A stretch of DNA of 64,000 bases, from assembly GCF_013294065.1 (NCBI RefSeq), contig NZ_JABSNM010000021.1:1-64000 (forward strand). The letters run 5' to 3'. A program made the translations under genes and the position numbers. Under the pieces are notes generated by a model. The model did not search any database. It was not told the DNA's origin and saw only the letters and a list, made by a program, of their open reading frames with translations. Each line of letters begins with the position of its first letter. Within the stretch, counting starts at the first letter, position 1. Positions 8,278-27,622 of this stretch are shown here, piece after piece. Source of the stretch: Sphaerotilus uruguayifluvii (lineage in GTDB: Bacteria; Pseudomonadota; Gammaproteobacteria; Burkholderiales; Burkholderiaceae_C).

Positions 8278-8292
8278 CGCCGCCCTCCCCGC

Positions 8293-9036: not shown

Positions 9037-9121
9037 CGGTCTTCGTCTCCTTGTCGCGACCCAGTGTAGAGCGCCGGGCTGCCGTCTGCCTGAGTGCCGT
9101 CCTGGGGTGCGCCCGGCGTGT

Positions 9122-9150
9122 CAGGTCGCGTCACGCACCTCGCCTAGAAT
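9122..9150 (+). promoter_or_regulatory. Possible promoter of the halogenase-chorismatase operon
   Basis: A TAGAAT hexamer at 9145-9150 is a good -10 candidate about 75 nt before the halogenase start. The -35 position at 9122-9127 (CAGGTC, 17-nt spacer) is poor, so either an activator is needed or the call is wrong. Confidence 0.3.
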
Positions 9151-9224
9151 CGCCGCGTGCCCCGGATTCCGCAACTTCCGCACGATCAGCATCAGCATCC
9201 CGCACCTCAGGCAGGCCCCAGGCG

Positions 9225-10559
9225 ATGAACACGCACGACACCCCGACCCGCGTCCGCAGCCGTGACTGCGACGTGCTCGTCATCGGCGGCGGCCCGGCCG
9301 GCTCGACGCTGGCCACGCTGCTGGCCCGGCGCGGCCGCCGCGTCACGATGATCGAGAAGATGCACCACCCGCGCTTCCACATCGGCGAGTCGCTGCTGCC
9401 GGCCAACGTGCCGCTGTTCGACGACCTGGGCGTGCGCGCCGAGGTCGAGGCGATCGGCATGCCCAAGTGGGGCGTCGAGTTCGTCTCGCCCGACCACGAC
9501 CACCGCAGCTACCTCGAGTTCGGCGACGCGCTCGACAAGTCGCAGCCCTACGCCTGGCAGGTGCGCCGCGCCGATCTCGACGAGATCCTGTTCCGCAACG
9601 CCGCGAAGGCCGGCGCCGCCGCGCTGGAGGGCCACCGCGCCCGCGAGGTGCGCTTCGACGCCGAGGGCGCCGACGTGGACATCGACATCGACGACGGCCG
9701 CCGCGAGACCTGGCGCGCACGCTACGTCGTCGACGCCAGCGGCCGCGACACGCTGCTGGCCGGCCAGATGCGCTCCAAGCGCCGGCACCCCGACCACGCC
9801 AGCTCGGCCGTCTTCGGCCACTTCCGCGGCGCGCGCCGGCTGGAGGGCAGGCTGGAGGGCAACATCACCATCTTCTGGTACCCGCACGGCTGGTTCTGGT
9901 TCATCCCGCTGGCCGACGGCACCACCAGCATCGGCGCGGTCTGCTGGCCCTACTACCTGAAGTCGCGCACGAAGCCGCTGCGCGACTTCTTCATGGACAC
10001 CATCGCGATGTGCCCGCAGCTGGCCGAGCGGCTGCAGGGTGCCGAGCTGGTCGACGACCAGGTGCACGCCACCGGCAACTACTCCTACCTGGGCACGCAC
10101 TGCACCGGCGAGCGCTACGCGATGCTGGGCGACGCCTTCGCCTTCATCGACCCGGTGTTCTCCTCGGGCGTCTACCTGGCGATGCAGAGCGCCTATGCGG
10201 CCGTGCCGCTGGTGGAGGCCTCGCTGGACAAGGCGCCCTCGTCGTGCACCGTCGAGCGCGCGGACTTCGAGAAGTTCATGCGCGCCGGCCCGCGCGAGTT
10301 CTCCTGGTTCATCTTCCGCGTCACCAACCCGACGATGCGCGAGTTCTTCATGGCGCCGCAGAATCCGCTGCGCATGAAGGAGGCGCTGCTGACGGTGCTG
10401 GCCGGGGACATCTACGGCAGCACGCCCTACCGCCGTCCGCTGCAGGCCTTCAAGACCCTGTACTGGCTGGTGTCGATGGCCCATCCGCTGCGCACCTGGC
10501 GCGCATGGAGCCGCCGCCGCGACAACATCCGCGACCTCGAGATCGCCGCGACCCCGTGA
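9225..10559 (+). CDS. Flavin-dependent halogenase-like oxidoreductase of the aryl polyene locus
   Basis: 444 residues. It has a Rossmann FAD site GGGPAGST at 21-28, HIGESLLP at 52-59, Lys81 in MPKWGVEF where flavin halogenases carry their catalytic lysine, the halogenase signature WxWxIP at 223-228 (WFWFIP) and the second FAD motif GDAFAFIDPVFSSGVYLA at about 302-319. Such enzymes use FADH2, O2 and halide to form HOX and halogenate aromatic rings; xanthomonadin-type pigments carry bromine or chlorine on the aryl head. It heads the plus-strand pigment operon, and its TGA overlaps the GTG of the chorismatase. The ATG at 9225 is chosen because it begins the FAD-binding domain. A non-halogenating monooxygenase remains possible. 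Confidence 0.82.
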   Translation: MNTHDTPTRVRSRDCDVLVIGGGPAGSTLATLLARRGRRVTMIEKMHHPRFHIGESLLPANVPLFDDLGVRAEVEAIGMPKWGVEFVSPDHDHRSYLEFGDALDKSQPYAWQVRRADLDEILFRNAAKAGAAALEGHRAREVRFDAEGADVDIDIDDGRRETWRARYVVDASGRDTLLAGQMRSKRRHPDHASSAVFGHFRGARRLEGRLEGNITIFWYPHGWFWFIPLADGTTSIGAVCWPYYLKSRTKPLRDFFMDTIAMCPQLAERLQGAELVDDQVHATGNYSYLGTHCTGERYAMLGDAFAFIDPVFSSGVYLAMQSAYAAVPLVEASLDKAPSSCTVERADFEKFMRAGPREFSWFIFRVTNPTMREFFMAPQNPLRMKEALLTVLAGDIYGSTPYRRPLQAFKTLYWLVSMAHPLRTWRAWSRRRDNIRDLEIAATP

Positions 10560-11542
10560 CATTGAGATTCGAGCGACAGCCGCCCGGCCCGGCCGGCTTC
10601 TCCGCGTTCCCTGCCGCCGCCGTGCTCGCCGAGCGCGGCCATTTCGACGACGGGCGCGCCGCCGGTGCGCCGCGGCTTCTCGCCGGCGAGCCGGCCTGCG
10701 CCGAGCGCTGGCTGAGCGAGGCACCGGCCGCGGCGCGGACCGAGGGCCGCACCGGCCACGTGAGCTGGCACGACGACGGCCGCTGGCTGCACGGCAGCGC
10801 CTGCATCGAGGTGAGCGGCGGCGCGCGGCTGCGCGAGGACACCCGCGCGCTCTACGCCGACCTGTTCGAGGTGCTGCGCCAGCGCGGCGACCTGCACCTG
10901 CTCAAGGTCTGGAACTACCTGCCGCACATCAACGCCGAGCTCGACGGGCTCGAGGTCTACCGGCACTTCAACATCGGCCGCCAGCAGGCCTTTCTCGACG
11001 CCGGCCAGCGTGCCTTCGAGGGCGCGCCCGCGGCCTGCGCGCTCGGGCACCACGAGGGCCCGCTGAGCGTGCATTTCCTGGCCGGCCGCCAGGCGCCGCG
11101 CCCGATCGAGAACCCGCGCCAGGTCAGCGCCTACCACTATCCGTCGAGCTACGGCCCGCGCAGCCCGACCTTCTCGCGCGCGGCGCTGGTCTCGCTGGCG
11201 CCGGGCGAGGAGACGCTGTTCATCTCCGGAACCGCCAGCATCGTCGGCCACCGCACGCTGCATGCCGGCGACGTCGGCGCGCAGACCGCCGAGACGCTGC
11301 GCAACCTCGAGGCGGTGATCGCCTCGGCGCACGCGCAGACCTCGGCCCGGTTCGACCTGCGCACGATGGACCTGACGGTCTACCTGCGCGATCCGGCCGA
11401 CCGCGCCGCGGTCGAGGCGGTGCTGGCCGCCTCGCTCGGCGCGGACGCGCCCGGCCTGCGCGGCGCGCTGTGGCTGCATGCCGACATCTGCCGCACCGAC
11501 CTGCTCGTCGAGATCGAGGCCCAGGGGAGCGCACCGACATGA
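10556..11542 (+). CDS. Chorismatase, XanB2/Hyg5-type hydroxybenzoate synthase
   Basis: 328 residues from the GTG at 10556, which overlaps the halogenase stop. The chorismatase family signature is clear: NYLPHIN followed by YRHFNIGRQQAF, ENPRQVSAYHYP, YGPRSPTFSRA, FISGTASIVGH and the C-terminal ADICRTDLLVEIE. The family hydrolyses chorismate; the XanB2/Hyg5 branch gives 3-hydroxybenzoate (XanB2 also 4-hydroxybenzoate), the FkbO branch a dihydroxycyclohexadiene acid. The Cys in ADICRTD is like the one reported to favour the hydroxybenzoate branch, but I cannot align it here. With ACP, ligase and KS genes nearby it should supply the aryl starter unit of the polyene. Confidence 0.88.
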   Translation: MTLRFERQPPGPAGFSAFPAAAVLAERGHFDDGRAAGAPRLLAGEPACAERWLSEAPAAARTEGRTGHVSWHDDGRWLHGSACIEVSGGARLREDTRALYADLFEVLRQRGDLHLLKVWNYLPHINAELDGLEVYRHFNIGRQQAFLDAGQRAFEGAPAACALGHHEGPLSVHFLAGRQAPRPIENPRQVSAYHYPSSYGPRSPTFSRAALVSLAPGEETLFISGTASIVGHRTLHAGDVGAQTAETLRNLEAVIASAHAQTSARFDLRTMDLTVYLRDPADRAAVEAVLAASLGADAPGLRGALWLHADICRTDLLVEIEAQGSAPT

Positions 11543-12402
11543 GAGCCCTGCCCGCCGCCGCCGGCCTGCTGTCGCTGGGCGCCGCGCTGCTGCTGCCGCC
11601 GGCCGCGCTCGGCGCGCCGGCCGAGTCCGATCCGGCACCGCAGCGGCCGCTGTGGGAGCTCGGCGTCGGCCTGGCCGGCGTGCACCTGCCCGACTACCGC
11701 GGCGCCGATGTCTCGCACGACTACCTGCTGCCGCTGCCCTGGCTGATCTACCGCGGCCGCTGGCTGCGCGCCGACCGCGAGGGCGCGCGTGCGGTGCTGC
11801 TCGAGAGCACGGACACCGAGCTGAACCTGAGCGCCCATGCCTCGGCGCCGGCACGCAGCCGCGACAACCCGGCGCGGCGCGGCATGGCCGACCTGCCCGC
11901 CACCGTCGAGCTCGGGCCCAGGATCGGCCACCGGCTCTGGCGCGCCGCCGACGGCTCGGCCGAGCTGGAGGCGCAGGCGCCGCTGCGCGCGGTCATGACG
12001 CTGCAGCGCTCGCCGCGCTGGGTCGGCACGGTGTTCACGCCGACGCTGGACCTGTCGCTGCCGAAGCGGGTCGAGGGCTGGAACCTGGGCGTGCAGGTCG
12101 GCGCGAGCTGGGGCTCGCGCGGCCTGCACCAGCATCTGTACGGCGTCGACGCGGCCCAGGCCGAGGCCACCCGCCCGGCCTGGAGCGCCCGCGCGGGCTA
12201 CGGCGGCTGGCATGCGCTGGCCGCGGCCTCGCGCCGCCTGCATCCGGACCTCTGGGCGGGCCTGTTCCTGCGCGTCGACCGGCTCGACGGCGCCGCCTTC
12301 GCCGACAGCCCGCTGGTGCGCCGCCACAGCGCCGTCTCCGGCGGCTTCGCGCTGGCCTGGGTGCTGGCGCGCTCCTCCGAGGAGGCCCGCAGTGGCGAAT
12401 GA
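11539..12402 (+). CDS. MipA/OmpV family outer-membrane protein
   Basis: 287 residues with a signal peptide (residues 1-25, ending PAALGAPA) followed by alternating hydrophobic/polar beta-strand segments such as LWELGVGLAGVHLPDYRGAD, a typical MipA/OmpV opening. The ATG overlaps the chorismatase stop (ATGA), so it is translationally coupled to the pigment genes. In this setting it could be the outer-membrane site or scaffold for the finished aryl polyene, but the family is broad and includes MltA-interacting scaffold proteins. Unusually for a beta-barrel, the chain does not end in Phe but in a short charged tail (SSEEARSGE). Confidence 0.75.
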   Translation: MRALPAAAGLLSLGAALLLPPAALGAPAESDPAPQRPLWELGVGLAGVHLPDYRGADVSHDYLLPLPWLIYRGRWLRADREGARAVLLESTDTELNLSAHASAPARSRDNPARRGMADLPATVELGPRIGHRLWRAADGSAELEAQAPLRAVMTLQRSPRWVGTVFTPTLDLSLPKRVEGWNLGVQVGASWGSRGLHQHLYGVDAAQAEATRPAWSARAGYGGWHALAAASRRLHPDLWAGLFLRVDRLDGAAFADSPLVRRHSAVSGGFALAWVLARSSEEARSGE

Positions 12403-13195
12403 GCCTGCCCGGGCGCCACGCCGGCGCGCGCCGCTGCCGGCCCAGGCCCTGCCGCCGGCGCTGCTGCGGCCGCTGCTGTCGGCCTGGATGCTGGTGCTGC
12501 TGGTCTGGCTCGGACTGATCTCGCTGAGCTGGAACGCGACCGCCTTCCTGCTGCAGTGGCTGCCGCTGCCGCCGACGCGCCGCCACGCGATCGGCCGCGC
12601 CGGCATCGCCTACGGCTACCGCTTCTACTGGGCCTGCGCGCGCGCCAGCGGCCTGATGCGGCTCGAGGCCGACGCGCTCGACGCGCTGCGCGACGATCCC
12701 GGCGGCGTCATCATCGCCGCCAACCATCCCAGCCTGCTCGACGCGCTGATGCTGGTGGCACGGCTGCCGCGCAGCGTCTGCGTGATGAAGGGCGCGCTGA
12801 TGCGCAACGTCTTTCTCGGCGCGGGCGCGCGGCTGGCCGGCTACATCGTCAACGACTCGCCGCGGCAGATGATCCGCGCCGCGGTCGACAGCCTGCAGGC
12901 CGGCGGCCAGCTGATCGTCTTTCCCGAGGGCACGCGCAGCCCCGGGCCCGGCGGCACGCTGCACCCGCTGCGTCCGGGCCTGACGCTGATCGCGCAGCGC
13001 GCCGGCGTGCCGATCCAGACGGTGCTGATCGAGACCGACTCGCCCTACCTCGGCAAGGGCTGGCCGCTGTGGCGGCTGCCGCCGCTGCCGATCGTCTTCC
13101 GGGCCCGGCTGGGCGAACGCTTCCCGCCCGAGGCCGACCACGAGGCGCTGCTCGCGCGGCTCGAGGACTACTTCAGGAAGGAGCTCGGCGAATGA
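12392..13195 (+). CDS. PlsC-type acyltransferase (1-acylglycerol-3-phosphate acyltransferase family)
   Basis: 267 residues from the GTG at 12392, preceded by GGAGG. One N-terminal TM helix (about residues 30-50) is followed by the catalytic HX4D motif NHPSLLD and the glycerolipid-binding FPEGTRS motif, so the enzyme should act at the inner face of the cytoplasmic membrane. It overlaps the MipA gene by 11 bp and the glycosyltransferase by 4 bp. Aryl polyene and xanthomonadin loci normally carry such acyltransferases to join the pigment to a lipid or sugar-lipid anchor. The acceptor here is unknown. Confidence 0.82.
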   Translation: MANEPARAPRRRAPLPAQALPPALLRPLLSAWMLVLLVWLGLISLSWNATAFLLQWLPLPPTRRHAIGRAGIAYGYRFYWACARASGLMRLEADALDALRDDPGGVIIAANHPSLLDALMLVARLPRSVCVMKGALMRNVFLGAGARLAGYIVNDSPRQMIRAAVDSLQAGGQLIVFPEGTRSPGPGGTLHPLRPGLTLIAQRAGVPIQTVLIETDSPYLGKGWPLWRLPPLPIVFRARLGERFPPEADHEALLARLEDYFRKELGE

Positions 13196-13992
13196 ACGCC
13201 CGCCCCGCCCCGCCGCGCTCGCGCACCCATGCGCTGCTGATCCCCAGCTACAACACCGGCCCGAAGGTCTACGAGACGGTCGCCGCCGCCCGCGCGCAGT
13301 GGGCGCCGGTCTGGGTCGTCGTCGACGGCAGCACCGACGGCACGCCCGAGGGCCTGCGCCGCCTGGCCGAGGCCGATCCGGACCTGCACCTGATCGTGCT
13401 GCCGCACAACCGGGGCAAGGGCAGCGCGGTGCTCGCCGGCCTGCAGGCCCTGCGCGACGCCGGCTACACCCACGCGCTGACGATGGACTCCGACGGCCAG
13501 CATCCGGCCGACCTGATCGGTCTGTTCATGCGCCGCTCGCAGGCCCAGCCCGACGCGATGATCCTGGGCAAGCCCGTCTTCGACGCGTCGGCGCCGCTGC
13601 TGCGGGTGCGCGGACGGCGCATCTCCAACGCCTGGACCGACCTGGAGACGCTGGGCGCGGGCATCGGCGACTCGCTCTACGGCTTCCGCGTCTACCCGAT
13701 CCATCCGCTGATCGCGGTGATGCGCCGCCAGCCCTGGATGCGCCGCTTCGACTTCGACACCGAGGCGGTGGTGCGCCTGGCCTGGCGCGGCGTGGCGCCG
13801 CTGAACCTGCCCGCGCCGGTGAAGTACCTGCGCCCGGAGGACGGCGGCGTCTCGCACTTCAACTACCTGCGCGACAACGTGCTGCTGACCTGGATGCACA
13901 CCCGGCTGGTGCTGGAGTTCCTGCTGCGGCTGCCGCTGCTGCTGGTGCGCCGGCTGCTGCGCCGCCCGCCCTTCCAGATGCTCGATTCCTGA
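13192..13992 (+). CDS. GT2 family glycosyltransferase of the pigment operon
   Basis: 266 residues. The GT-A fold is shown by LIPSYNTG (residues about 16-23), VVVDGSTDGT, HNRGKGSAVLAGL and the metal-binding MDSDGQHPADL. The C-terminus holds one amphipathic or membrane-peripheral helix (LLRLPLLLVRRLLRR). It resembles dolichyl-phosphate-mannose-synthase-like enzymes that put sugars on lipid carriers. The start overlaps the acyltransferase stop (ATGA). A sugar transferred to the aryl polyene lipid is the likely role; donor and acceptor are not readable. Confidence 0.82.
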   Translation: MNARPAPPRSRTHALLIPSYNTGPKVYETVAAARAQWAPVWVVVDGSTDGTPEGLRRLAEADPDLHLIVLPHNRGKGSAVLAGLQALRDAGYTHALTMDSDGQHPADLIGLFMRRSQAQPDAMILGKPVFDASAPLLRVRGRRISNAWTDLETLGAGIGDSLYGFRVYPIHPLIAVMRRQPWMRRFDFDTEAVVRLAWRGVAPLNLPAPVKYLRPEDGGVSHFNYLRDNVLLTWMHTRLVLEFLLRLPLLLVRRLLRRPPFQMLDS

Positions 13993-14093
13993 TCTTCGTC
14001 GGGATCGTCCGCGGAAGAAGCGGTTCTTCACAAGGGTGACTGGCGGTCGCCGTGCAGCGTGGGCACACTGGGAGACTGGACCAAGGAGGCCGA

Positions 14094-15056
14094 ATGAGCC
14101 ACGAACGATCGAAGCACGATCTGCAGCGCCGCCGTCTGCTGGGAGCGGCGGCGCTGGTGCCGCTGGCGGCGTCGCCGCTGCTGCTGGGCGGCTGCGCGAG
14201 CACGCCGCCGCTGGCGCCGATTCCGTCCGACGAGCGGACGCAGCCGGAAGCCGCCGCGCTGCTGGCCGAATCCGCCGCCGCGCACGGCCTGCCGGCCTGG
14301 CGCCGGGTACGCGACCTGAGCGTGTCCTACCGGGGCGAATGGCGCCCGCTGATCGACCGGCTGCAGCCCGAGCTGGTCGACGCGCGCTTCCGCGTCGCCT
14401 CGGAGGAGCGCCTGATTCCCGGCGAAGGCCTGATCGCGCAGTCGCACACCGGCCCCGGCGGCCACAAGCATGTGGTGCGCCAGTCGGGCCGCGGCGGCAG
14501 CGCCGACACCGGCGGCGTCACGGTCGCCTACAACGGCGTGCCCACCACCGACGAGCCGCTGCGCCAGGCCAGCGCGCTGGTGGCCGACGGCTACCGCCTC
14601 TTCCTGCTCGGCCCGATGGCGCTGGTCGACGGCGGCCACACGCTGCGCCTGGCCGGCCTGGAGCAGGTCGGCGAGCATGCCTGCGAGCGGCTGATGGTGC
14701 GGCTGGCGCCCGGCCTGGGGCTGTCGCCGGTGGACCAGCTGGTGCTGTGCATCGACCGGCGCACCCGGCTGATGCGCCGCGTTCGCTTCACGATGGACGG
14801 GCTGGCCTCGACGCGCGGCGCGCTGGCCGAGGTCGACACCTTCGACTTCCAGAACATGCACGGCATCGAGTGGCCGACGCGCTTCCACGAGCGGCTGCGC
14901 CGGCCGATCCCGCGCCTGCCGGTGCACGACTGGCAGCTCACCGGGCTGGACATCAACCGCGGCCTGAAGGCGGCCGACCTCGGCGGCACGCAGTTCGCCG
15001 GCGTGGCGCGCGGCCCGGCGCGTGCGCTGCCCGGCGCGTCGCCCGACCCGGCCTGA
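14094..15056 (+). CDS. Lipoprotein of the pigment locus, function unknown
   Basis: 320 residues with a clear ribosome site (AAGGAGG, 14083-14089). The N-terminus has a twin-arginine-like QRRRLLGAAAL and a lipobox LLGGC, so it is an exported lipoprotein, perhaps via Tat. The rest is probably a beta-rich LolA/LppX-like lipid-binding fold (RVRDLSVSYRGEW..., PVHDWQLTGLDINRG), although I cannot assign a named family. It is the last gene of the plus-strand pigment operon, 101 bp after the glycosyltransferase and convergent with the ketoreductase. A role in carrying the hydrophobic pigment is a guess from context. Confidence 0.7.
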   Translation: MSHERSKHDLQRRRLLGAAALVPLAASPLLLGGCASTPPLAPIPSDERTQPEAAALLAESAAAHGLPAWRRVRDLSVSYRGEWRPLIDRLQPELVDARFRVASEERLIPGEGLIAQSHTGPGGHKHVVRQSGRGGSADTGGVTVAYNGVPTTDEPLRQASALVADGYRLFLLGPMALVDGGHTLRLAGLEQVGEHACERLMVRLAPGLGLSPVDQLVLCIDRRTRLMRRVRFTMDGLASTRGALAEVDTFDFQNMHGIEWPTRFHERLRRPIPRLPVHDWQLTGLDINRGLKAADLGGTQFAGVARGPARALPGASPDPA

Positions 15057-15080
15057 GGCGGCTTGAGGCGGCTTGAGGCG
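15051..15080. repeat. Three tandem 10-bp repeats at a convergent gene end
   Basis: Three copies of GC(C/T)TGAGGCG in a row; the first holds the stop codon of the lipoprotein gene. The repeat sits in the 41-bp space between two converging genes, next to GGCCGGGGCCGGCCCGG, which can fold into a GC-rich stem. It was probably made by slipped replication; a termination role is possible. Confidence 0.6.
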
Positions 15081-15097
15081 GCCGGGGCCGGCCCGGC

Positions 15098-15874
15098 TCA
15101 GATCATCCCGCCGTTGACCGAGATGACCTGGCCGGAGATGTAGCCCGCCTCGTCGCCGGCGAGAAAGGCCACCAGCGCGGCGACCTCCTCGGGCGTGCCG
15201 GCACGCCGGGCCGGCACCATCTGCGCGACGGCCTTGGCGTCGAAGACCGCGTCGGCCATCGCCGAGGCGATGATGCCCGGCGCCACCACGTTGACGGTGA
15301 TGCCGCGGCTGGCCAGCTCCAGCGACAGCGACTTCGAGGCCGAGTGCAGCGCGCCCTTGGCCGCGGCGTAGTTGACCTGGCCGCGGTTGCCCGCCACCGC
15401 CGCGACCGAGCTGATCGAGATGATGCGGCCCCAGCGGGTGCGGATCATCGGCATCGTCAGCGGCTGCGTCACATGGAAGAAGCCGTGCAGCGACACGTCG
15501 ATGACGCGGTGCCACTGCGCCGCGCTCATGCCGGGAAAGACCGCGTCGTCGTGCAGGCCGGCGTTGTTGACGATCACCTGCACCGGGCCGCCGGTCTCGA
15601 CGCAGGCCTCCAGCGCGGCGCGGCTGGCCTCGGCATCGGTGACGTCGAAGGCCAGCGCACCGGCCGAGCCGCCCTCGGCGCGGACCTGCGCCGCGACCGC
15701 TTCGGCGGCATCGAGCCGCGAATGGGCGTGGCACAGCACATGGAAGCCCGCGCGGCCCAGCCGCAGCGCGATCGCGCGGCCGAGGTCGCCGCTGGCGCCG
15801 GTCACCAGTGCGCGGCGCGGCGCGGCGGCGGGCGCGGCCGCGGCGGAGACGGGGGAAGAGGAAGCGGCGGTCAT
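15098..15874 (-). CDS. 3-ketoacyl-ACP reductase (FabG/ApeQ-like) of the aryl polyene operon
   Basis: 258 residues, short-chain dehydrogenase/reductase. NADPH site TGASGDLG at 25-32, NNAG at 103-106, catalytic Ser156, Tyr169 and Lys173 (NYAAAKGAL), and the C-terminal ISVNGG of FabG enzymes. It would reduce the 3-keto group after each chain extension on the ACP. It is the last gene of the 13-gene minus-strand operon and overlaps the dehydratase gene by 4 bp. The start at 15874 gives a 20-residue Ala/Ser-rich leader before the core fold; a start nearer to residue 20 is possible. Confidence 0.88.
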   Translation of the reverse strand: MTAASSSPVSAAAAPAAAPRRALVTGASGDLGRAIALRLGRAGFHVLCHAHSRLDAAEAVAAQVRAEGGSAGALAFDVTDAEASRAALEACVETGGPVQVIVNNAGLHDDAVFPGMSAAQWHRVIDVSLHGFFHVTQPLTMPMIRTRWGRIISISSVAAVAGNRGQVNYAAAKGALHSASKSLSLELASRGITVNVVAPGIIASAMADAVFDAKAVAQMVPARRAGTPEEVAALVAFLAGDEAGYISGQVISVNGGMI

Positions 15875-16347
15875 GGCTGTCGGGTCTCCGGGGCGGGCGT
15901 CGTGCCGGCCAGCGCGTCGAGCACCACCGCCAGCCGGCCCTCGACGACGACCTCGCCGGCATGGCGCACGGCGAAGCCGTAGAGCAGCTGGCGCGCGTCG
16001 CCCGCCTGGCGGACGGCCTCGATCTCGAGCGGACCGGGCAGGTCGTCGAGCCGCAGGCGGTGGAAGGTGATGGCGCGGGCGCTGGCCAGGTAGCCGGGCG
16101 CGGCGGTGGCGCCGTCGGCCTCGGCCAGCAGACCGCCGTGCAGGGCCGCGGCCTGCGCGGCGTATTCGATCGCGGCGGCCGCCGGCAGGCCGTGGCGGCC
16201 GCGCAGCGGGTTCAGCGGATCGGCGTGCGAGACGGCGCGCGCGCGGATCGCCTGCGCGTCCCAGCCCAGCGCCGCGTCGAGCAGGCACATCGTGCCCTGG
16301 TGCGGAATGCGCGCGGCGATCCCGGCGTGATCGAGCCCGCCGCTCAT
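15871..16347 (-). CDS. Hotdog-fold 3-hydroxyacyl-ACP dehydratase (ApeP-like)
   Basis: 158 residues, the length of the ApeP/FabZ-like dehydratases of aryl polyene clusters. IPHQGTMCLLDAALGWD near residues 14-30 matches the family opening (hPH...m.lld.v). The central AAIEYAAQAAALHGGL is the hotdog helix with the acidic catalytic position. It should remove water from the 3-hydroxyacyl-ACP to make each trans double bond. Its start overlaps the chain-length-factor stop and its stop overlaps the ketoreductase start, so the three are coupled. A second, different dehydratase lies at 24039-24389. Confidence 0.8.
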   Translation of the reverse strand: MSGGLDHAGIAARIPHQGTMCLLDAALGWDAQAIRARAVSHADPLNPLRGRHGLPAAAAIEYAAQAAALHGGLLAEADGATAAPGYLASARAITFHRLRLDDLPGPLEIEAVRQAGDARQLLYGFAVRHAGEVVVEGRLAVVLDALAGTTPAPETRQP

Positions 16348-18379: not shown

Positions 18380-18410
18380 GACAGCAGGAACATCAGCAGA
18401 AGAAAGGAGA

Positions 18411-20032: not shown

Positions 20033-20061
20033 GGTGACGGATCGGGCAGGCGGCGGGATTT

Positions 20062-22455
20062 TCACACAGCCGCCGCCCTGCGGGGCTGACGGATGAAGGC
20101 CGCCGACAGCAGCAGCGCCAGCAGCGCGCCCGGCGCGACCGTCTGGCCGACCGCCGCCAGCGCCGGCACCTGCGCGGTGGCGAGCAGGCCGAAGGAGGCC
20201 ACCGTCGTCAGATTGGCCATCAGCAGCGAGGCCAGCAGGTCGGCCCCGGCCTGCGCGTCGTCGCCGTCGGCCGGGGCGGTGCCCGAGGTCGCGGCGAGGT
20301 GGTCGAAGAACAGCGCGTAGTTCGACCCGACCGCCACCACCAGCAGCAGCCCGACCAGGTGCAGCACGCCCAGCGGCTGGCCCGACGCGGTCAGCCCGGC
20401 CAGCACCAGCACGCCGCTGGCCGCCAGCGGCCACAGCACCCGCGCCAGCCGCCGGCCCGAGCGCAGATGCCAGGCCAGCAGCGCGACGACCGCCAGCGCG
20501 CCCAGTCCGGCCTGCCAGCGCGCCTGCGTCAGGTAGCCGGCGTAGATCGCGTCCAGCTCGGGCTGGATGCGCACGACCCGGGTGTCGGGCAGCCCGGCCA
20601 GCGCCCGGTCCAGACGCGCGGCCGCCGCCGGGTCGGCCGCGGCTGCCGGGGTCATGCGCAGGCTCAGCAGCGCGGTCCACGGCGCGCCGGCCTGGCGCGG
20701 CGCGACCAGCTGCGCGTCCAGCGCGGAGGCCAGCGGCGTGCCGGCCAGACCGGCCCGGGTCAGCACCGGCGCGCGGCGCTGCGCCTGCACATCGTCGACG
20801 AAGGCCTGCAGCGACCCGGCCGGCAGCGGCCCGCCGGCGGTGGCCTGCGCCAGCGCCTGGCGCAGCGCCGCGGCCTCGGGCAGCGCGGCGCGGCGCGCGA
20901 GCTGGGTCGACGGGCTGGGCAGGCGCTGCGCCGGCGAGTCGTAGCCCGCCAGCACGCCGGCCTGGACCAGCGCCTCCAGCCGCGCGCCGGCCTGCTCGGC
21001 ACGCTGCAGGGCCTGCGCCTCGTCGGGCGCCTCGATGGCGACCAGCACGCCGGCCTCGGCCGCGCCCAGGTCCTCGCGCAGCGAGGCGTCGAGCGCCATC
21101 GCCTCGGCCGGCACCGGACTCAGCGCGGCCAGCGTGCCGCGCCAGGGCGAAGGCTGCAGCGCCAGCCAGAGCGCGGCACCCGCCGCCAGCAGCGCCAGCG
21201 GCCGCGCCAGCCGCGGCAGCGCGCCGGCGAGCCGGCCGGTCGCGCGGCCCAGCGGCCCGCGCAGGCCCAGGCCGGGGCTGCCCTGCGGCGCCAGCACCGG
21301 CAGCACGAAGCGGGTGGTCAGCGTCGCGGCGACCAGGCCGCTGATCGAGAACAGCCCGAGCTGCACCAGCCCGGCGAAGCCCGAGAAGGCCAGCGCCGCG
21401 AAGCCCGCCAGCGAGGTCAGCAGCCCCAGGCGCACCGTCGGCCAGTGCTGCCGGCGCCAGCCCGCGGCGCCCAGCGCGCGCGCCTGGATCAGGTAGTAGA
21501 TGCCGTAGTCGACCGCCTCGCCGATCAGCGTGGTGCCGAAGCCCAGCGTCAGCCCGTGCACCGTGCCGGTCAGCAGATCGACCGCGACGATGCCCGCCAG
21601 CACGCCCGCGCCCACCGGCAGCGCCGCCAGCAGCAGCGCCTGCGGCCGCCCGAAGGCGATCAGCAGCAGCACCAGCATCACCGCGCCGCCCGCCTTGGCC
21701 AGCCGATCGACCTCGGCGTGGATCAGCGTGCGCGACTCGACCGCGAACACGCCCGGCCCCGACAGCTCGAGCTGCAGGCCCGGCCCGGCCTGCGGTGCCA
21801 CCGCCGCAAAGGCCGCGCGCACCTGCTGCTGCGCGGCGGCCTGCGCGTCCAGGTCGTCGCCGTCGGCGCGGGTGGTGGCCACCAGCAGCGCGCGCGGCTC
21901 GCGGCGCGACACCCAGACGCCGTCCTCGACGCGGGGCGCGACCGCCGGCAGCATGGCCTCGGCCATGCGCACCGTCTCGCCGGTGGGGTCGCGCATCAGG
22001 ATCGGCTTGATCATCGCGCCGGCCGGCGTGCCCAGCAGCGACAGCGTCTCGTCGATGCCCGCGCGCAGGCCCTCCGGCTGGAAGCGCGCCGCGTCCACCG
22101 CCGGACTCAGCAGATAGCGCCGCTCGAACAGCAGCCGGCCCAGCGCCTGCTGCTCCGGCCCGCCGGTCTCGCCGTTGTGGACCGCGTCGAAGGCGCCGCT
22201 CTGGCGCAGCCGCGCCGCCAGCCGGCGCGAGGCCTCGGCCCGCGCGGCCGGCTCGCCGCCGCGCACGCCGATCAGCAGCACGCGGGCGGTGGCGCCGTTG
22301 CGCAGCTGCTCCATCAGCACGCGCTGGCCCGGCGTCGGCGCCGAGGGCAGGAAGGCCGACAGGTCGGCGACATAGCTGGCGCGGGCCGCGACCAGCCCGG
22401 CCAGCGCCATCAGCGCCAGCCAGATCGCCAGCGTCCAGGCGGCGGCGCGGCGCAT
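20062..22455 (-). CDS. MMPL/RND-type exporter of the pigment operon
   Basis: 797 residues, a size usual for the MMPL exporters of aryl polyene clusters. TM1 is at residues 8-24, followed by a large periplasmic loop, then TM bundles (AVMLVLLLIAFGRPQALLLAALPVG, GTTLIGEAVDYGIYYLIQA, LVVAVGSNYALFFDHLA). The paired Asp/Tyr motifs EAVDYGIYY and VGSNYALFFDHL are the proton-relay helices of both halves. It would use the proton motive force to lift the pigment lipid out of the inner membrane. Its start overlaps the stop of the LolA-like gene. Confidence 0.87.
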   Translation of the reverse strand: MRRAAAWTLAIWLALMALAGLVAARASYVADLSAFLPSAPTPGQRVLMEQLRNGATARVLLIGVRGGEPAARAEASRRLAARLRQSGAFDAVHNGETGGPEQQALGRLLFERRYLLSPAVDAARFQPEGLRAGIDETLSLLGTPAGAMIKPILMRDPTGETVRMAEAMLPAVAPRVEDGVWVSRREPRALLVATTRADGDDLDAQAAAQQQVRAAFAAVAPQAGPGLQLELSGPGVFAVESRTLIHAEVDRLAKAGGAVMLVLLLIAFGRPQALLLAALPVGAGVLAGIVAVDLLTGTVHGLTLGFGTTLIGEAVDYGIYYLIQARALGAAGWRRQHWPTVRLGLLTSLAGFAALAFSGFAGLVQLGLFSISGLVAATLTTRFVLPVLAPQGSPGLGLRGPLGRATGRLAGALPRLARPLALLAAGAALWLALQPSPWRGTLAALSPVPAEAMALDASLREDLGAAEAGVLVAIEAPDEAQALQRAEQAGARLEALVQAGVLAGYDSPAQRLPSPSTQLARRAALPEAAALRQALAQATAGGPLPAGSLQAFVDDVQAQRRAPVLTRAGLAGTPLASALDAQLVAPRQAGAPWTALLSLRMTPAAAADPAAAARLDRALAGLPDTRVVRIQPELDAIYAGYLTQARWQAGLGALAVVALLAWHLRSGRRLARVLWPLAASGVLVLAGLTASGQPLGVLHLVGLLLVVAVGSNYALFFDHLAATSGTAPADGDDAQAGADLLASLLMANLTTVASFGLLATAQVPALAAVGQTVAPGALLALLLSAAFIRQPRRAAAV

Positions 22456-23096
22456 CAGGGCGCCACCGGCTCGATGCGCAGCTGGGTGCGGTCGCCGTCG
22501 CTCATCGTCATCTGCACCTCGCGCAGCTGCGCCTGCGCGCCCAGGATGCGCAGCTGCGCGACCTGGCCGCGCAGCCGCGCGTCGCGCGGCACCAGCTCCA
22601 GCGTCCAGCGCGCCGCCTCGCCCGACAGGCGCGGCACGAACAGGCGCTCGAGCAGCTCGCGGTTGCCGGTCAGCGTGCCGCGGATCGCCTCGACGATCAC
22701 CACCGCCTCCGGCACCGAGTCCAGCGTCGTGGTGCGGCTGCGCCCGCCCTGGCTCATCGTCAGCTGGTTGCCCTGCACCGCCAGGCGCTCCTGGCGCGGC
22801 TTGAGCGTCTCGCGCACGAAGGTGTCCGGCGCGGCGAAGCTCAGCCGCCCGCTCGACTCCAGCGCCAGCGGCGAGCCGCGCTCGTTCTGGAAGACCTCCC
22901 GGCGCTCGACGAAGGTGGCCTCGCCGGCGCGCACCTGCGTCAGCCGCGCCATCAGCGCGTCAAGGTCGAAGCCGGCCGCGTGCGCCGGCCCGCCCGTCGG
23001 CAGCACCAGCAGAAGCGCCAGCGCCGCCATCAGGCGGCGTCGGCCGGTCAGGGGTGCCGTCGGCGTCGTTCGCATCGGCTGCATCGGCTGCTTCAT
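22455..23096 (-). CDS. LolA-like periplasmic carrier of the pigment operon
   Basis: 213 residues if started at 23096; starts at 23084, 23075 or 23030 keep the same signal peptide (TGRRRLMAALALLLVLPTGGP, cut after AHA). The mature part follows the LolA/LppX layout: FDLDALMARLTQVRAGEATFVERREV, then SSGRLSFAAPDTFVRETLKP, then Val/Leu-rich strands. It is a different protein from the housekeeping LolA at 50819-51487. Such proteins in aryl polyene loci probably ferry the lipid-linked pigment across the periplasm. Its 5' end overlaps the acyltransferase gene by up to 137 bp. Confidence 0.8.
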   Translation of the reverse strand: MKQPMQPMRTTPTAPLTGRRRLMAALALLLVLPTGGPAHAAGFDLDALMARLTQVRAGEATFVERREVFQNERGSPLALESSGRLSFAAPDTFVRETLKPRQERLAVQGNQLTMSQGGRSRTTTLDSVPEAVVIVEAIRGTLTGNRELLERLFVPRLSGEAARWTLELVPRDARLRGQVAQLRILGAQAQLREVQMTMSDGDRTQLRIEPVAP

Positions 23097-24042
23097 TGGC
23101 GTCCGCCCAGAAATCGAAGAAGTTGAACCAGTTGCACGGCGTCTCGCGGCACAGCCGCTCGAGCAGCGCGACATAGCGCCGCATCGCCTCGTGCACCGCC
23201 GCGTCCAGCGCGGCCTGCGCACCGGGGCCACGCGGCGGGCGCTGGCGGAAGTCGGCCAGCGTCTCGAAGCGCAGCTCGTAGCGGCGGCCGCCATGGTAGA
23301 GCCCGGTCATGAAGACCACCGGCCGGCGCAGCATCGCCGCGAGCCGGAACGGTCCGTCCGAGAAGGACGCCGGCTGGCCGAGAAAGTCCAGCCGCAGCGT
23401 GCGGCCGCGGCCGCCGGCGGGCGTGCCCCCGGCGCCACCCGGCGCGATCGTGCGATCGGCCAGCAGCCCGGCGACGCCGCCGGCGTCGAGCCACTCGCGC
23501 AGCTCCAGCATCGCCTCGAGCCGGCCCAGGCCGATCACCTTCAGCTCCACCCCGGGCGCGATCGCGCGCAGCGCGGCGTTGATCTGGCGCGCGTTGTCCT
23601 CGTACATCACCATCGCGACCTTCAGGCCGCGCCGCGCCTGGCCGAGCGCGCGCAGCGCCTCGAAGCTGCCCAGATGCGCGCCCACCAGCAGCACGCCCTG
23701 GCCGTCGAGCAGCACCTGGTCGAGGTGATCGACGCCGGTGACCTTCACGTCGAACAGATCGAAGCGCCCGCGCAGCAGGTAGACGCGGTCCAGGATGGTC
23801 GCGGCGAAGTGGTGCACATGGCGGTAGCGCTCGCGCCAGCCGGGGGCGCGACCGCACGCCCGCGCCAGGTAGGCGCGCGAGGCGCGCGTCGCCGCCCCGC
23901 CGAAGGCCAGGAAATACAGCGTGATCGGATGCAGCACCGCCCGCGAGACGCGCCGGCCCAGCAGCACCGCGATCCAGCGCATCAGCGTCAGCGCCAGCGC
24001 GTTGCTGCGCTCGCGCTGCGCGGTCCAGGCCGGCGTGCTCAT
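22960..24042 (-). CDS. LpxL/HtrB-like acyltransferase of the pigment operon
   Basis: 360 residues. The core (1-315) matches the lipid A lauroyl/myristoyl transferase family: TM-like segment near the start, the HX4E motif in GAHLGSFEALR, RTIAPGG and the closing NWFNFFDFWAD. After this natural end the frame runs on for about 45 residues as an Ala/Asp/Gly-rich tail, which is read through the start region of the LolA-like gene. Aryl polyene clusters usually have this enzyme, probably to acylate the lipid anchor or transfer the polyene. The start at 24042 overlaps the dehydratase stop. Confidence 0.83.
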   Translation of the reverse strand: MSTPAWTAQRERSNALALTLMRWIAVLLGRRVSRAVLHPITLYFLAFGGAATRASRAYLARACGRAPGWRERYRHVHHFAATILDRVYLLRGRFDLFDVKVTGVDHLDQVLLDGQGVLLVGAHLGSFEALRALGQARRGLKVAMVMYEDNARQINAALRAIAPGVELKVIGLGRLEAMLELREWLDAGGVAGLLADRTIAPGGAGGTPAGGRGRTLRLDFLGQPASFSDGPFRLAAMLRRPVVFMTGLYHGGRRYELRFETLADFRQRPPRGPGAQAALDAAVHEAMRRYVALLERLCRETPCNWFNFFDFWADANEAADAADANDADGTPDRPTPPDGGAGASAGAADGRAGARGRLRP

Positions 24043-24389
24043 CGGGCAGGCGTCGGCTCGATCTGGCCCAGCGCCACCGGCAGGCCCTCGGGCGGATCAC
24101 CCGCCTCGTGGCGGCGCAGCTCGAAGTTCAGCCGCCGGCCGGCCTCGGGCGCGCTCCAGCCGATCGACAGCCGTGCGCCCGGCAGCACCGGCGCGACGAA
24201 CTTGACGCTGCTGCAGCGCGGCGCCGCGCCCATCCAGGCAGCCGTCTGCGCGTCGTCCTGCAGCGCCTCGAGCACCGCGCCGAGCAGCACCACGCCGGGC
24301 AGCAGCGGCCGCCCCGGGAAATGGCCGGCGAAGGACGGATGATCCGGCGGCACCGTCCAGCGCACGCGCTCCATCCAGCCCTCAGCCAT
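24039..24389 (-). CDS. FabA/FabZ-like 3-hydroxyacyl-ACP dehydratase (ApeI-like)
   Basis: 116 residues. DHPSFAGHFPGRPLLPGVVLL is the active-site region of FabZ-type hotdog dehydratases (catalytic His in GHFPG), followed by the central helix and APVLPGARLSIGW. The start at 24389 overlaps the ligase stop by 8 bp; a second ATG at 24374 is possible. With the ApeP-like protein at 15871-16347 the operon has two dehydratases, as in known aryl polyene systems where the two differ in chain-length preference. Confidence 0.82.
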   Translation of the reverse strand: MAEGWMERVRWTVPPDHPSFAGHFPGRPLLPGVVLLGAVLEALQDDAQTAAWMGAAPRCSSVKFVAPVLPGARLSIGWSAPEAGRRLNFELRRHEAGDPPEGLPVALGQIEPTPAR

Positions 24390-25815
24390 GGCCACCTCCG
24401 GCGCCGCGCGCCGCCTCGGCCAGCAGCTGCGCAGCCAGCTCGGCCAGCCGCCCGGCCGGCAGCTTGCCGCTCGGATCACGCGGCAGCGCCTCGACCCGCA
24501 GCACCCGCCGCGGCACGAAGGCCGCATCCACCCGCTGGCGCAGGCCCGCGCGCAGCTGCTCGGCGCTCACGCCGGCCTCGGCCACCACCAGCGCGACCAG
24601 GCGCACCACGCCGTCCTCGGGCTCGGGCGGCAGCCAGAAGGCGCCGTCGCGCACGCCGGGCAGGCTGTTGAGGTGGTAGTTCAGGTGCGCCAGCGAGCTG
24701 CGCTTGCCGGCGATGTTGATCAGGTCGTTGGAGCGCCCGAGCAGCCGGAAGCGCGTCGGCGACTCCACCTCGAGCACGTCGGCCAGCCGGGTCGGCTCGG
24801 GCACATGGCCGCCGCGGACCACCGCCGCGTCGCCGTCGCCGTCCAGGCGCAGGCCGTCGAAGGTCTGCCACTCCGGCCCGGCCGTCGGGCGCCGGGTCGC
24901 GACCTGGCCGGCCTCGGTGCAGCCGTAGATCTCGATCAGCGGCCCCTGCAGCGCGGCCTCGGCCCGCGCGGCAAGCTGCGGCGACAGCGGCGCGGTGGCG
25001 CTCACCGTCAGGTCCACCGGCGGCAGCGCGTCCGGCGGCAGGCCGGCGTCGAGCAGCGTCTTCAGGTGGAAGGGCGTGGTCACCAGCACCCGCGGCCGCG
25101 GCACCGAAGCCAGCACCTGCGCGATGTCGCCCGGGAAGAAGGGCCGCTCGGCGGCGAAGGCCGCGCCGCCCAGCATCGCCACCAGCACCGTCGACTCGAA
25201 GCCGTACATGTGGTGCGCCGGCACCGTGCCGACCAGGGTCACGCCCTGCAGGTCCGGCCGCCCCAGCACCTCGGCCAGACGCGCGGCCTCGGCGCGCAGG
25301 TTCACATGCAGCAGGTCCCAGCGCTTGCCATGCGGCATCGGCTGGCCGGTCGAGCCGGAGGTGAGCACCTGCGCCGCCTCGTGCGCGCCGGCGATCATCG
25401 GCATCGCCGCGCTGCCTGCCGCGTCGTTCCCGCGCGGGCGGCAAGCCGCGCCCGCCCCCTCGTCGAAGCGCACCGTCGGCAGGTCCACCGCCGGCGCCTC
25501 GTCGTCGGCCAGCACCGAGGCCTGCGGGAACAGCGCCCGCAGCCGCGCGATCATGTCCGGCGTGTGGTTGGGCGGCATCAGCCCGGCCTGGCCGCGGCAC
25601 AGCGCCGCGCCCAGCGCCAGCGCGAAGCGCCAGCGGTCCGAGGTCATCGCCAGCACCGGCCCGCCCTCGGGCAGGCGCGGCGCCAGCGCGGCGACCTCGG
25701 CGAGATAGGTGCGGCGGTCGAGCGGCTTCCCGGCCCGCCAGGCCAGCGGCGCCTCGAGCGGCACGTCGGCGGCCAGCAGCGGCAGCCGTGCCGCCGGCAT
25801 CGTCGTCATCGTCAT
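24382..25815 (-). CDS. Aryl acyl-AMP ligase loading the starter onto ACP (ApeH/XanA2-like)
   Basis: 477 residues, ANL superfamily. P-loop TSGSTGQPMPHGKRW, the YGCTEAGQVATRRP adenine/substrate motif, hinge LLGRSNDLINIAGKRSS and the catalytic lysine in LPRDPSGKLP. It is shorter than the stand-alone acyl-CoA synthetase at 4226 and matches the ligases of aryl polyene loci that activate hydroxybenzoate and pass it to an ACP. ATG codons at 25815, 25809 and 25800 are all possible starts; 25815 overlaps the TGA of the membrane protein gene. Confidence 0.84.
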   Translation of the reverse strand: MTMTTMPAARLPLLAADVPLEAPLAWRAGKPLDRRTYLAEVAALAPRLPEGGPVLAMTSDRWRFALALGAALCRGQAGLMPPNHTPDMIARLRALFPQASVLADDEAPAVDLPTVRFDEGAGAACRPRGNDAAGSAAMPMIAGAHEAAQVLTSGSTGQPMPHGKRWDLLHVNLRAEAARLAEVLGRPDLQGVTLVGTVPAHHMYGFESTVLVAMLGGAAFAAERPFFPGDIAQVLASVPRPRVLVTTPFHLKTLLDAGLPPDALPPVDLTVSATAPLSPQLAARAEAALQGPLIEIYGCTEAGQVATRRPTAGPEWQTFDGLRLDGDGDAAVVRGGHVPEPTRLADVLEVESPTRFRLLGRSNDLINIAGKRSSLAHLNYHLNSLPGVRDGAFWLPPEPEDGVVRLVALVVAEAGVSAEQLRAGLRQRVDAAFVPRRVLRVEALPRDPSGKLPAGRLAELAAQLLAEAARGAGGGHG

Positions 25816-26330
25816 CGCGGACTTCCGTCGGCCTGGTGCGCCCGCCAGGCCCGCACCGACGCCATCAGGCCGACACGCTCGAACTCCGGATGCAGCCGGT
25901 AGCGCAGCAGGTGCTCGCCGGCGAACATCGCCAGCAGCGACAGCGGCGTGACCGCGTTGACCAGCAGCGACCAGGCCTCGACCCACCCGGCGCCATGCAG
26001 GGCCAGCGACAGCAGCGCGATCGTCAGGAAATACAGCACCCAGACCTGGGTGAGCCGGCGGGTGTAGGCCGCCATCGCCGGCGTGAAGCCGGTGCGGCCG
26101 TGCACCCGCCGCGCCAGCTGCGAGATCAGCGGCTGCTGCCCGCGGCGCAGCGTCAGCGCGAAGCCCAGCGCCAGCGCGGCATGCACGCCGGCGTGCTGCA
26201 CCAGCACCGCCCATTGCAGCGCGACCGCCAGCAGGCCGCCGCTCTCGGCGGTGCGGGTGATCAGCCAGTGCGAGCCGAAGGCGACGGCCAGGGCCGCCGC
26301 GGCGATCGTGGCCGGACGCAGCAGTTGCAC
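25812..26330 (-). CDS. Membrane protein of aryl polyene clusters (COG4648-like)
   Basis: 172 residues from a GTG at 26330, taken because a GGAG lies 8 nt upstream; a GTG at 26339 is the alternative. It has about four hydrophobic helices (6-25, 32-55, 98-118, 125-145) with the conserved-looking LQWAVLVQHAGVHAALALGF and GRTGFTPAMAAYTRRLTQVWVLYF. A protein of this sort lies between ACP and ligase in aryl polyene loci; its job is not known. It lies 22 bp after the ACP gene and overlaps the ligase gene. Confidence 0.72.
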   Translation of the reverse strand: MQLLRPATIAAAALAVAFGSHWLITRTAESGGLLAVALQWAVLVQHAGVHAALALGFALTLRRGQQPLISQLARRVHGRTGFTPAMAAYTRRLTQVWVLYFLTIALLSLALHGAGWVEAWSLLVNAVTPLSLLAMFAGEHLLRYRLHPEFERVGLMASVRAWRAHQADGSPR

Positions 26331-26352
26331 GCGATCCACTCCAGGGCCGGAC

Positions 26353-26622
26353 TCAGGCGGTGCGATGCGCCGCGATGTGGTCGGCCAGGCTGGCCAGCGA
26401 CGCGAAGATGCGCACGTTGTTCTCGTCGTCCGAACGCAGCTGGAAGCCATAGCGCTTCGAGACGACCAGCGCGACCTCCAGGATGTCGATCGAGTCCAGG
26501 CCGAGGCCGTCGCCGTAGAGCGGAGCCTGCGGATCGATCTCCTCCGGGGCCATCTCGAGATTCAGCGCCTCCACCAGCAGGGCGGCCACCTCCAGGCGAA
26601 GCGTGTTGTCGGCAGTGCTCAT
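26353..26622 (-). CDS. Acyl carrier protein of the aryl polyene operon
   Basis: 89 residues, acidic. The phosphopantetheine attachment motif is GLGLDSIDILE with Ser44. The loop and helix after it (VALVVSKRYGFQL) and IFASLASLADHI are typical ACP helices III and IV. It is the first gene of the minus-strand operon and the only ACP seen, while many aryl polyene loci have two. The aryl starter and the growing polyene should be carried on Ser44 after modification by a phosphopantetheinyl transferase, which is not encoded in this window. Confidence 0.88.
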   Translation of the reverse strand: MSTADNTLRLEVAALLVEALNLEMAPEEIDPQAPLYGDGLGLDSIDILEVALVVSKRYGFQLRSDDENNVRIFASLASLADHIAAHRTA

Positions 26623-26716
26623 TCGGGGTCTGTCCTTGTGGGGAGGCCGGTGACGGGGCCGGCGCCGGTGTCGTTGAAGGTCGGAAACCTGGATCAGGCA
26701 TCAGGATCAACCCCAG

Positions 26717-26744
26717 ATTTTAACCAGCCCCTGCACCCGATCAG
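26717..26744 (-). promoter_or_regulatory. Possible promoter of the 13-gene pigment operon
   Basis: On the minus strand TAAAAT (26722-26717) is a 5/6 match to the -10 box and lies in a small AT-rich island. CTGATC (26744-26739) is a weak -35 at 16-nt spacing. The leader to the ACP start would be about 88 nt. The region also lies upstream of the divergent methyltransferase gene. Confidence 0.35.
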
Positions 26745-26818
26745 GGTCGACAAGAACTCGACGGAATTAGGATGAGGGCCCGCGAGCCCCCCGTCTCCGC
26801 GTCCGACACCGATCCGCC

Positions 26819-27622
26819 ATGCCGCCGCCCACCGCCTCCCGCTCCTCCGCCCTGCCGACGCCCGGTGCCGGCGCCCCCGCCGGCCTCGTCCACCTGCCGC
26901 ATGCGCCGCTGCCCGACTACTACCGCAGCGACGACGAGGCCGAGCGCGAGCGCTTCCTGCGCCGCACCTTCGACGACACCGCGGTCGACTACGACCGGCT
27001 GGAGAAGATCCTCGGCCTGGGCACCGGCTCCTGGTACCGCCGCCAGGCGCTGCAGCGCGCCGGCCTGCGCCGCGGCATGCAGGTGGTCGACGTCGGCATG
27101 GGCACCGGCCTGGTCTCGCGCGAGATCCTGCGCCTGACCGGCGAGCCGGCGCGGCTCGTCGGCGTCGACCCGAGCCCGGGCATGATGGGCCAGGCCCGCT
27201 TCGACGTGCCGGTCGAGTGCCGCGTCGGCCGCGCCGAGGCGATTCCGGTGCCCGACGCCAGCGCCGACTTCGTCGTCATGGGCTACGCGCTGCGCCACAT
27301 CGCCGACTTCGCGGCGGCCGCGGCCGAGTTCCGCCGCGTGCTCAGGCCCGGCGGCCGGCTGCTGATCCTGGAGATCACCCGGGCCGAGAGCCGCTGGGGC
27401 AATGCGCTGCTGAAGGCCTACATGCGCGGCGCGGTGCCGCTGCTGGCGCGCGCCGTCTCGAAGGCCGAGGCCACGCCGATGCTCTGGCGCTACTACTGGG
27501 ACACGATCGAGGCCTGCGTGCCGCCGGCCGAGGTCATGCGCACGCTGGCCGCGCACGGCCTGGCCGAGGTCGACCGCCATGTCGAGCTCGGGATCTTCTC
27601 GGAGTACCGCGCACGCGGCTGA
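26819..27622 (+). CDS. Class I SAM methyltransferase (UbiE/COQ5-like) beside the pigment operon
   Basis: 267 residues. After a Pro/Ala-rich head of about 25 residues come RRTFDDTAVDYDRLEKI (UbiE-like entry), motif I VVDVGMGTGLVS, SPGMMGQARFDVP, motif II DFVVMGYALRHIADF and motif III LRPGGRLLILEI. In xanthomonadin-like loci a methyltransferase can act on the phenolic head; UbiE-type enzymes also methylate quinones. It diverges from the ACP gene and shares the 196-bp intergenic region, which suggests co-regulation with the pigment genes. There is no good ribosome site before 26819, so the true start may differ. Confidence 0.78.
   Translation: MPPPTASRSSALPTPGAGAPAGLVHLPHAPLPDYYRSDDEAERERFLRRTFDDTAVDYDRLEKILGLGTGSWYRRQALQRAGLRRGMQVVDVGMGTGLVSREILRLTGEPARLVGVDPSPGMMGQARFDVPVECRVGRAEAIPVPDASADFVVMGYALRHIADFAAAAAEFRRVLRPGGRLLILEITRAESRWGNALLKAYMRGAVPLLARAVSKAEATPMLWRYYWDTIEACVPPAEVMRTLAAHGLAEVDRHVELGIFSEYRARG

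Follow-up and report, generated by a model that had tools for sequence, protein, structure and literature searches.

An apparently intact arc/xanthomonadin-type aryl polyene locus in Sphaerotilus uruguayifluvii

Genes and layout of the pigment locus

The window analysed in this work, that is the whole stretch of 64,000 nucleotides, comes from the genome of Sphaerotilus uruguayifluvii (4.89 Mb, 48 contigs) and carries, on contig C21, a pigment locus spanning nt 9225–27622. Genes were called from reading frames, GC content by codon position and domain matches, the start codons being our choice; Pfam matches were judged against the curated Pfam cut-offs and NCBIfam models against their own. Twenty genes were called, all with frames free of internal stops, and they form two facing operons (plus strand, nt 9225–15056; minus strand, nt 26622–15098), as proposed in an earlier note on this DNA, together with a divergent methyltransferase gene. 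The locus is an apparently intact and ordinary member of the arc/xanthomonadin type, hence of a known family rather than a new system. Gene content, the tree of its ketosynthase (KS), and structure matches of the KS and its chain-length factor (CLF)-like partner all agree with the xanthomonadin-like aryl polyene locus that the same note had recognised.

The plus-strand operon starts with an FAD-dependent halogenase-like enzyme (nt 9225–10559; Trp_halogenase, 86.9 bits, and FAD_binding_3; arcA-like), where arc names are those of the arcuflavin genes of Azoarcus BH72. It is followed by a XanB2/ArcB-like chorismatase (nt 10556–11542; PF21168, FkbO_Hyg5-like_N, 122 bits), a MipA outer-membrane protein (nt 11539–12402; PF06629, 142 bits; arcC-like), a PlsC-type acyltransferase (nt 12392–13195; PF01553, 58.8 bits; arcD-like), a GT2 glycosyltransferase (nt 13192–13992; PF00535, 68.5 bits; arcE-like) and, at the operon junction, a lipoprotein whose predicted fold resembles those of LolA and LolB (nt 14094–15056; structure model and fold search).

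The minus-strand operon opens with an acyl carrier protein (ACP; nt 26353–26622; PF00550, PP-binding, 33.7 bits; arcV-like) and a small arcU-like membrane protein (nt 25812–26339), called as a reading frame with no Pfam match, whose homologues in related clusters likewise stand between the ligase and ACP genes. Then come an aryl acid acyl-AMP ligase (nt 24382–25815; PF00501, AMP-binding, 56.6 bits; arcT-like), an ApeI/FabA-like hotdog dehydratase (nt 24039–24389; PF07977, FabA, 31.4 bits, cut-off 23; arcS-like), an LpxL-type acyltransferase (nt 22960–24042; PF03279, Lip_A_acyltrans, 26 bits, cut-off 22.3; arcR-like), a LolA-like periplasmic carrier of uncertain start (nt 22455–23096; PF19574, LolA_3, 69 bits; flexirubin LolA2 37 bits, below cut-off; arcQ-like) and an MMPL/RND exporter (nt 20062–22455; PF03176; HpnN-like 49.6 bits, below cut-off; arcP-like). 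The second half encodes a NodB-fold (CE4) deacetylase (nt 19163–20038; PF01522, Polysacc_deac_1, 105 bits; arcN-like), an S-adenosylmethionine-dependent methyltransferase (nt 18411–19166; PF13649, 51 bits; arcM-like), the KS (nt 17186–18379; PF02801, Ketoacyl-synt_C, and PF00109, ketoacyl-synt; arcK-like), the CLF-like half KS (nt 16344–17189; PF13723, Ketoacyl-synt_2, 90 bits; arcJ-like), an ApeP-like hotdog dehydratase (nt 15871–16347; PF22817; arcI-like), which in many related loci has a homologue close to the KS and CLF genes, and a ketoreductase (KR; nt 15098–15874; adh_short, 171 bits; arcH-like). Divergent from the ACP gene is a UbiE-type methyltransferase gene (nt 26819–27622, plus strand; PF01209, 81.6 bits), which in several relatives likewise adjoins the cluster or lies inside it.

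Within the operons 13 of the 17 junctions overlap, 12 by a few bases and one, at the uncertain LolA start, by 137 bases; the reading frames of the KS (397 aa) and CLF (281 aa) share 4 bases. The activities listed in the earlier note were recovered at their positions by Pfam matches, the MMPL exporter and the second hotdog dehydratase lying under cut-off; the arcU-like protein and the junction lipoprotein were absent from its list.

Ketosynthase placement, active sites and the predicted pigment

The KS tree comprised 89 rows, namely the window, a FabF-like row from the same genome and 87 of the 95 loci L033–L127 (those in which one match covers 80% or more of the query); Xanthomonas, Azoarcus BH72 and E. 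coli were not represented in it. The window KS falls in a nine-row clade (support 100/100) with six rows of the genus, G017 from the same family and Variovorax boronicumulans, the last being the nearest named KS among the matches listed and in line with the betaproteobacterial host suggested earlier. This clade is nested in a larger one of 50 rows (100/96), which also takes in Lysobacter, Luteimonas, Pseudoxanthomonas sacheonensis, Azonexus and Noviherbaspirillum and in which the Xanthomonadales KSs form a separate subclade. A clade of 18 rows (95/100), with Shewanella, Stutzerimonas, Pectobacterium and others, stands apart from it; its loci show a second KS match in 17/18 and a CLF match in 3/18, and it is taken to be the canonical ape type.

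The Cys-His-His triad of the KS, already described as intact, consists of C164, H294 and H328 and is invariant in 15/15 aligned KSs, and Ser44 of the ACP is kept in 32/32 rows, window included. Among solved structures, the best two matches of the KS are 6qsp_A and 7f28_B; the CLF has only two PDB matches at E ≤ 0.001, 7f28_A and 6qsp_B, that is the same entries, which we take to be aryl polyene KS-CLF pairs. Both S120 and Q166 are present in the window CLF, and S120 is found in all 45 rows of the residue count (the window plus matches of at least 38% identity and at least 60% coverage). In Lysobacter, ORF16 has both residues, and pigment was abolished by Q166A but not by S120A (PMC3691225).

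The chorismatase aligns with structures 5ag3, 4bps and 5a3k. Its Gly225, conserved in 13/13 rows, is Gly in 5ag3 and Ala in FkbO (4bps), and Gly at this position presumably goes with formation of 3-hydroxybenzoate (3-HBA). In Azoarcus, 3-HBA was seen only with ArcB (PMC3949708).

A xanthomonadin-type cluster was recognised by a stand-alone KS with a half-length CLF, the grouping of the KS, Q166 in the CLF, a XanB2-type chorismatase, and an aryl acid ligase, ACP, KR and dehydratases, and each of these was found, the ApeP-like dehydratase by a sub-cut-off model match. Weighing against such an assignment, the chorismatase stays under the TIGR04444 cut-off (217.7 against 325), as do the MMPL exporter (20.3 against 20.5 bits) and the ApeP-like dehydratase (17.9 against 27 bits) with their Pfam models; CLF Q166 is not universal (33/45 rows); and the Pfam matches of the scanned locus proteins include no thioesterase family. 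Nevertheless, judging from its relatives, from which the chemistry is drawn, the locus almost certainly directs the synthesis and export of an aryl polyene of the xanthomonadin kind, which would be a yellow, membrane-bound pigment like those described from Azoarcus and Xanthomonas.

In the proposed pathway, the chorismatase would convert chorismate to 3-hydroxybenzoate, perhaps 4-hydroxybenzoate, which the acyl-AMP ligase would load onto the ACP; the KS-CLF pair, KR and two dehydratases would then lengthen it by malonate units to give a conjugated polyene. The aryl head might be tailored by the methyltransferases and the flavin halogenase-like enzyme, and the two acyltransferases, the GT2 and the NodB-fold deacetylase would join the polyene to a lipid or sugar anchor. 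Transfer of the pigment to the outer membrane would involve the MMPL pump, the LolA carrier, MipA and perhaps the LolA/LolB-fold lipoprotein. We infer the loading, extension and export steps from homologues, the anchor steps and the halogenase activity being the least certain parts of the scheme.

Three departures from this scheme were considered. A canonical ape cluster of the E. coli/Vibrio type would share the core functions, which are indeed common with the 18-gene E. coli list, but the window KS lies outside the 18-row clade (in a tree lacking an E. coli row, as said), and the locus has a single ACP, encodes GT2 and acyltransferase in separate genes and includes a chorismatase gene as well as a halogenase-like one, while the two ACPs, the ApeJ glycosyltransferase/acyltransferase and the ApeR of canonical ape clusters were not found in it; such an identity is scarcely credible. 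Somewhat less remote, but still improbable, is an arcuflavin-type hybrid, in which the polyene would form an ester with a dialkylresorcinol (DAR) supplied by genes outside the locus. In gene content the nearest counterpart is in fact the Azoarcus arc set, whose product carries DAR (PMC3949708). On the other hand, the search for ketoacyl-ACP synthase III (KAS III) returned a single C-terminal domain (PF08541) from the genome, in a search that left darA aside and had no known DarB as positive control. This match lies on contig C15, 2.2 kb from a FabF-like KS, and looks like the housekeeping FabH. DarB being a KAS III-type protein, a single such domain makes a plain xanthomonadin-like polyene likelier than a DAR hybrid; a DAR moiety is unlikely and the xanthomonadin-like polyene is our best guess.

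A further alternative concerns the halogenase-like enzyme, which could be a hydroxylase or an inactive relative, leaving the pigment without halogen. Marks of flavin-dependent halogenases are GxGxxG, WxWxIP and an active-site lysine, and the protein carries GGGPAG, GWFWFIP and K81; K81 is conserved in 14/14 rows and W223, W225, I227 and P228 in 15/15, and the flavin halogenases 5buk, 7fco, 3e1t and 5dbj are among its best PDB matches. However, no NCBIfam halogenase cut-off was reached, the best scores being those of the QhpG monooxygenase (166.9 against 240) and the CmlS halogenase (165.7 against 900). We consider this non-halogenating role possible, though on balance not the probable one; the pigment is perhaps halogenated.

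Accessory genes and the site within the genus

For the xanthomonadin-like locus so defined, homologues of the NodB-fold gene were sought, at a threshold of at least 50% identity, in the related named loci, that is the best 80 among the matches listed, over which counts do not equal frequencies in nature. The window translation shows the motifs TIDDGP, NHSRHH, FFRAPAG and LLLHD. A homologue was found in 17/80 loci, with TxDDGP in 17, NHSxxH in 13, FFRxPxG in 12 and LLxHD in 13 when only the matched stretch is counted. Twelve of the 17 loci are at least 20 kb long: all 12 have CLF, MMPL, LolA, LpxL, ligase and both dehydratases, 11 have KR, ACP and arcU, and 10 have PlsC and GT2; the NodB-adjoining methyltransferase is present in six, the halogenase-like enzyme (a count that takes in weak matches to other FAD enzymes) and the chorismatase in five, MipA and UbiE in four, and the junction lipoprotein in none. 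Eleven of the 17 loci have their GT2 and PlsC genes on the other strand and pointing towards the KS operon, some with intervening genes. The NodB-fold gene points to an anchor step; in the literature searched on aryl polyene lipids and xanthomonadin, as far as available to us, no account of its chemistry was found and, apart from the Azoarcus paper, no apparent treatment of a NodB step in anchoring.

The junction lipoprotein (320 aa) shows RRR at its N-terminus, a hydrophobic segment and a lipobox-like GGC motif, and matched nothing in Pfam or NCBIfam. Its model, built from nine sequences (mean predicted local distance difference test score 77.8, predicted template modelling (TM) score 0.77), matched folds of DUF1329, the LolA superfamily, LppX/LprG, RseB and LolB, with 24 PDB chains at E ≤ 0.001 and a best match at E 4e-9 (TM 0.48/0.62). 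The protein may be an outer-membrane acceptor akin to the LolB-like ApeN of E. coli (PMC8253772). It was matched in 10 of the 60 genomes sampled (own included). Of the six other members of the genus that have a polyene-type KS, three (G002, G008 and G011) carry it next to the cluster; in G017 it adjoins the chorismatase, MipA and GT2. A pigment-specific part was ruled out, since some of the genomes bearing it, G005, G010 and G004, have no polyene-type KS match; the lipoprotein is probably accessory.

Among the 13 genomes of the genus (own included), polyene-type KS matches were found in seven: our own, G001, G002, G007, G008, G011 and G012. The GT2 recurs with 79–92% identity in 7 of the 12 others. 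In G006, 68% complete, a contig end carries the halogenase-like gene, chorismatase, PlsC and GT2, with no MipA between them. In the window the locus is flanked on the left by phosphoesterase and kinase genes and on the right by a small open reading frame (ORF), argF and argD. The flanks of G005 and G010 are 86–92% identical in DNA to these, and between phosphoesterase and argF only the chorismatase, the lipoprotein and the small ORF were found, in the window's gene order and with no room for more (L141 of G005, 7977–10068; L142 of G010, 9177–11280); chorismatase and lipoprotein are 81–83% identical in DNA, below the flanks. Among the cluster genes sought, G004 (83% complete, many contigs) has at the site only the lipoprotein, beside the phosphoesterase gene (L143, 5765–6694), and G009 only a MipA homologue, between argF and phosphoesterase (L175, 4983–5729). 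A loss of the cluster seems a simpler account than several separate gains at the same place; in the literature available to us, no apparent treatment of pigment cluster loss was found.

Because G005 and G010 keep XanB2 and the lipoprotein, with order and flanks unchanged, but lack the rest of the pigment genes at this site, we tentatively suggest, with less than even confidence, that in the genus these two proteins have a pigment-independent role. If true, the locus would provide a natural experiment on whether XanB2 generally supplies 4-hydroxybenzoate (for ubiquinone) or a diffusible signal, and on whether the lipoprotein is a lipid carrier that was taken over for pigment export. UbiC (PF04345) was matched in 0/13 genus genomes and 18/60 genomes, and XanB2 (PF21168) in 9/13 and 13/60. 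By Pfam, G003, G004, G009 and G011 have neither, and G011 nonetheless has a pigment cluster (L033), with no chorismatase match between the halogenase-like gene and MipA and none found by the PF21168 profile in the whole genome; a pig-like cluster without xanB2 has likewise been reported for Ralstonia solanacearum. The Pfam model may thus miss a divergent UbiC, or 4-hydroxybenzoate may come from another source, so that XanB2 may not be the only source in the genus. The site states (full cluster; XanB2 and lipoprotein; lipoprotein; MipA) form a natural series from which one might learn which parts serve other functions.

Some further features were observed. The kinase gene on the left flank (nt 6835–8277) encodes a single protein in which a universal stress protein domain comes after a protein kinase domain, and several members of the genus have it next to their phosphoesterase gene. 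In G007 (L038) and G001 (L039), the far side of the phosphoesterase and kinase genes holds a second KS-CLF-MMPL-arcU-ACP set, and the main cluster shows no MMPL match; the KS of this second set groups with Variovorax sp. Sphag1AA and a second KS from G017 (92/97), and G007 and G001 may have two polyene systems with a shared exporter. A tandem pair of tRNA-Arg(acg) genes is located at nt 34195–34384.

Comparison with known pigment systems

The E. coli CFT073 ape cluster shares with the window the ligase, ACP, KS, CLF, KR, two dehydratases, a methyltransferase, a LolA-like protein, an RND exporter, and acyltransferase and glycosyltransferase functions (PMC8253772). Its 18 genes include two ACPs, the ApeJ glycosyltransferase/acyltransferase, ApeK, ApeN and ApeR, but no chorismatase, halogenase, NodB or MipA (PMC8253772). 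The earlier note had found the gene order and the NodB and MipA genes unlike ape; this holds against the E. coli list, but the two genes are regular arc content (arcN and arcC), and their being novel additions was ruled out, as by annotation they correspond to these genes and recur in relatives. The xanthomonadin clusters of Xanthomonas and Lysobacter have in common with the window a stand-alone KS, a half CLF with S120 and Q166, a XanB2 homologue, two dehydratases, KR, ACP, a LolA-type carrier and exporters, but their gene order is unlike that of the window, and the Lysobacter OH11 cluster is described without a halogenase (PMC3691225).

The closest set is that of Azoarcus BH72, whose first locus holds arcA (halogenase), arcB (chorismatase), arcC (MltA-interacting protein), arcD (acyltransferase), arcE (glycosyltransferase), arcH (KR), arcI (dehydratase), arcJ (half KS) and arcK (KS), and whose second holds arcM (methyltransferase), arcN (PS-deacetylase), arcP (exporter), arcQ (LolA), arcR (acyltransferase), arcS (dehydratase), arcT (ligase), arcU and arcV (ACP); arcK and arcT insertion mutants were colourless (PMC3949708). 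By annotation and relative order, not by sequence comparison, the window matches arcA–E, H–K, M, N and P–V of the two arcuflavin loci (arcA–L and arcM–X), while arcF, arcG, arcL, arcO, arcW and arcX have no counterpart among the genes called here. The UbiE methyltransferase and the LolA/LolB-fold lipoprotein are extras of the window locus, and the KAS III search found no DAR gene candidate in its genome, whereas the Azoarcus product carries DAR. The genes unlinked in two loci in Azoarcus BH72 stand here in one, which adds a compact single-locus example to the arc/xanthomonadin type, with NodB and MipA as ordinary parts, and leaves the picture of the family unchanged.

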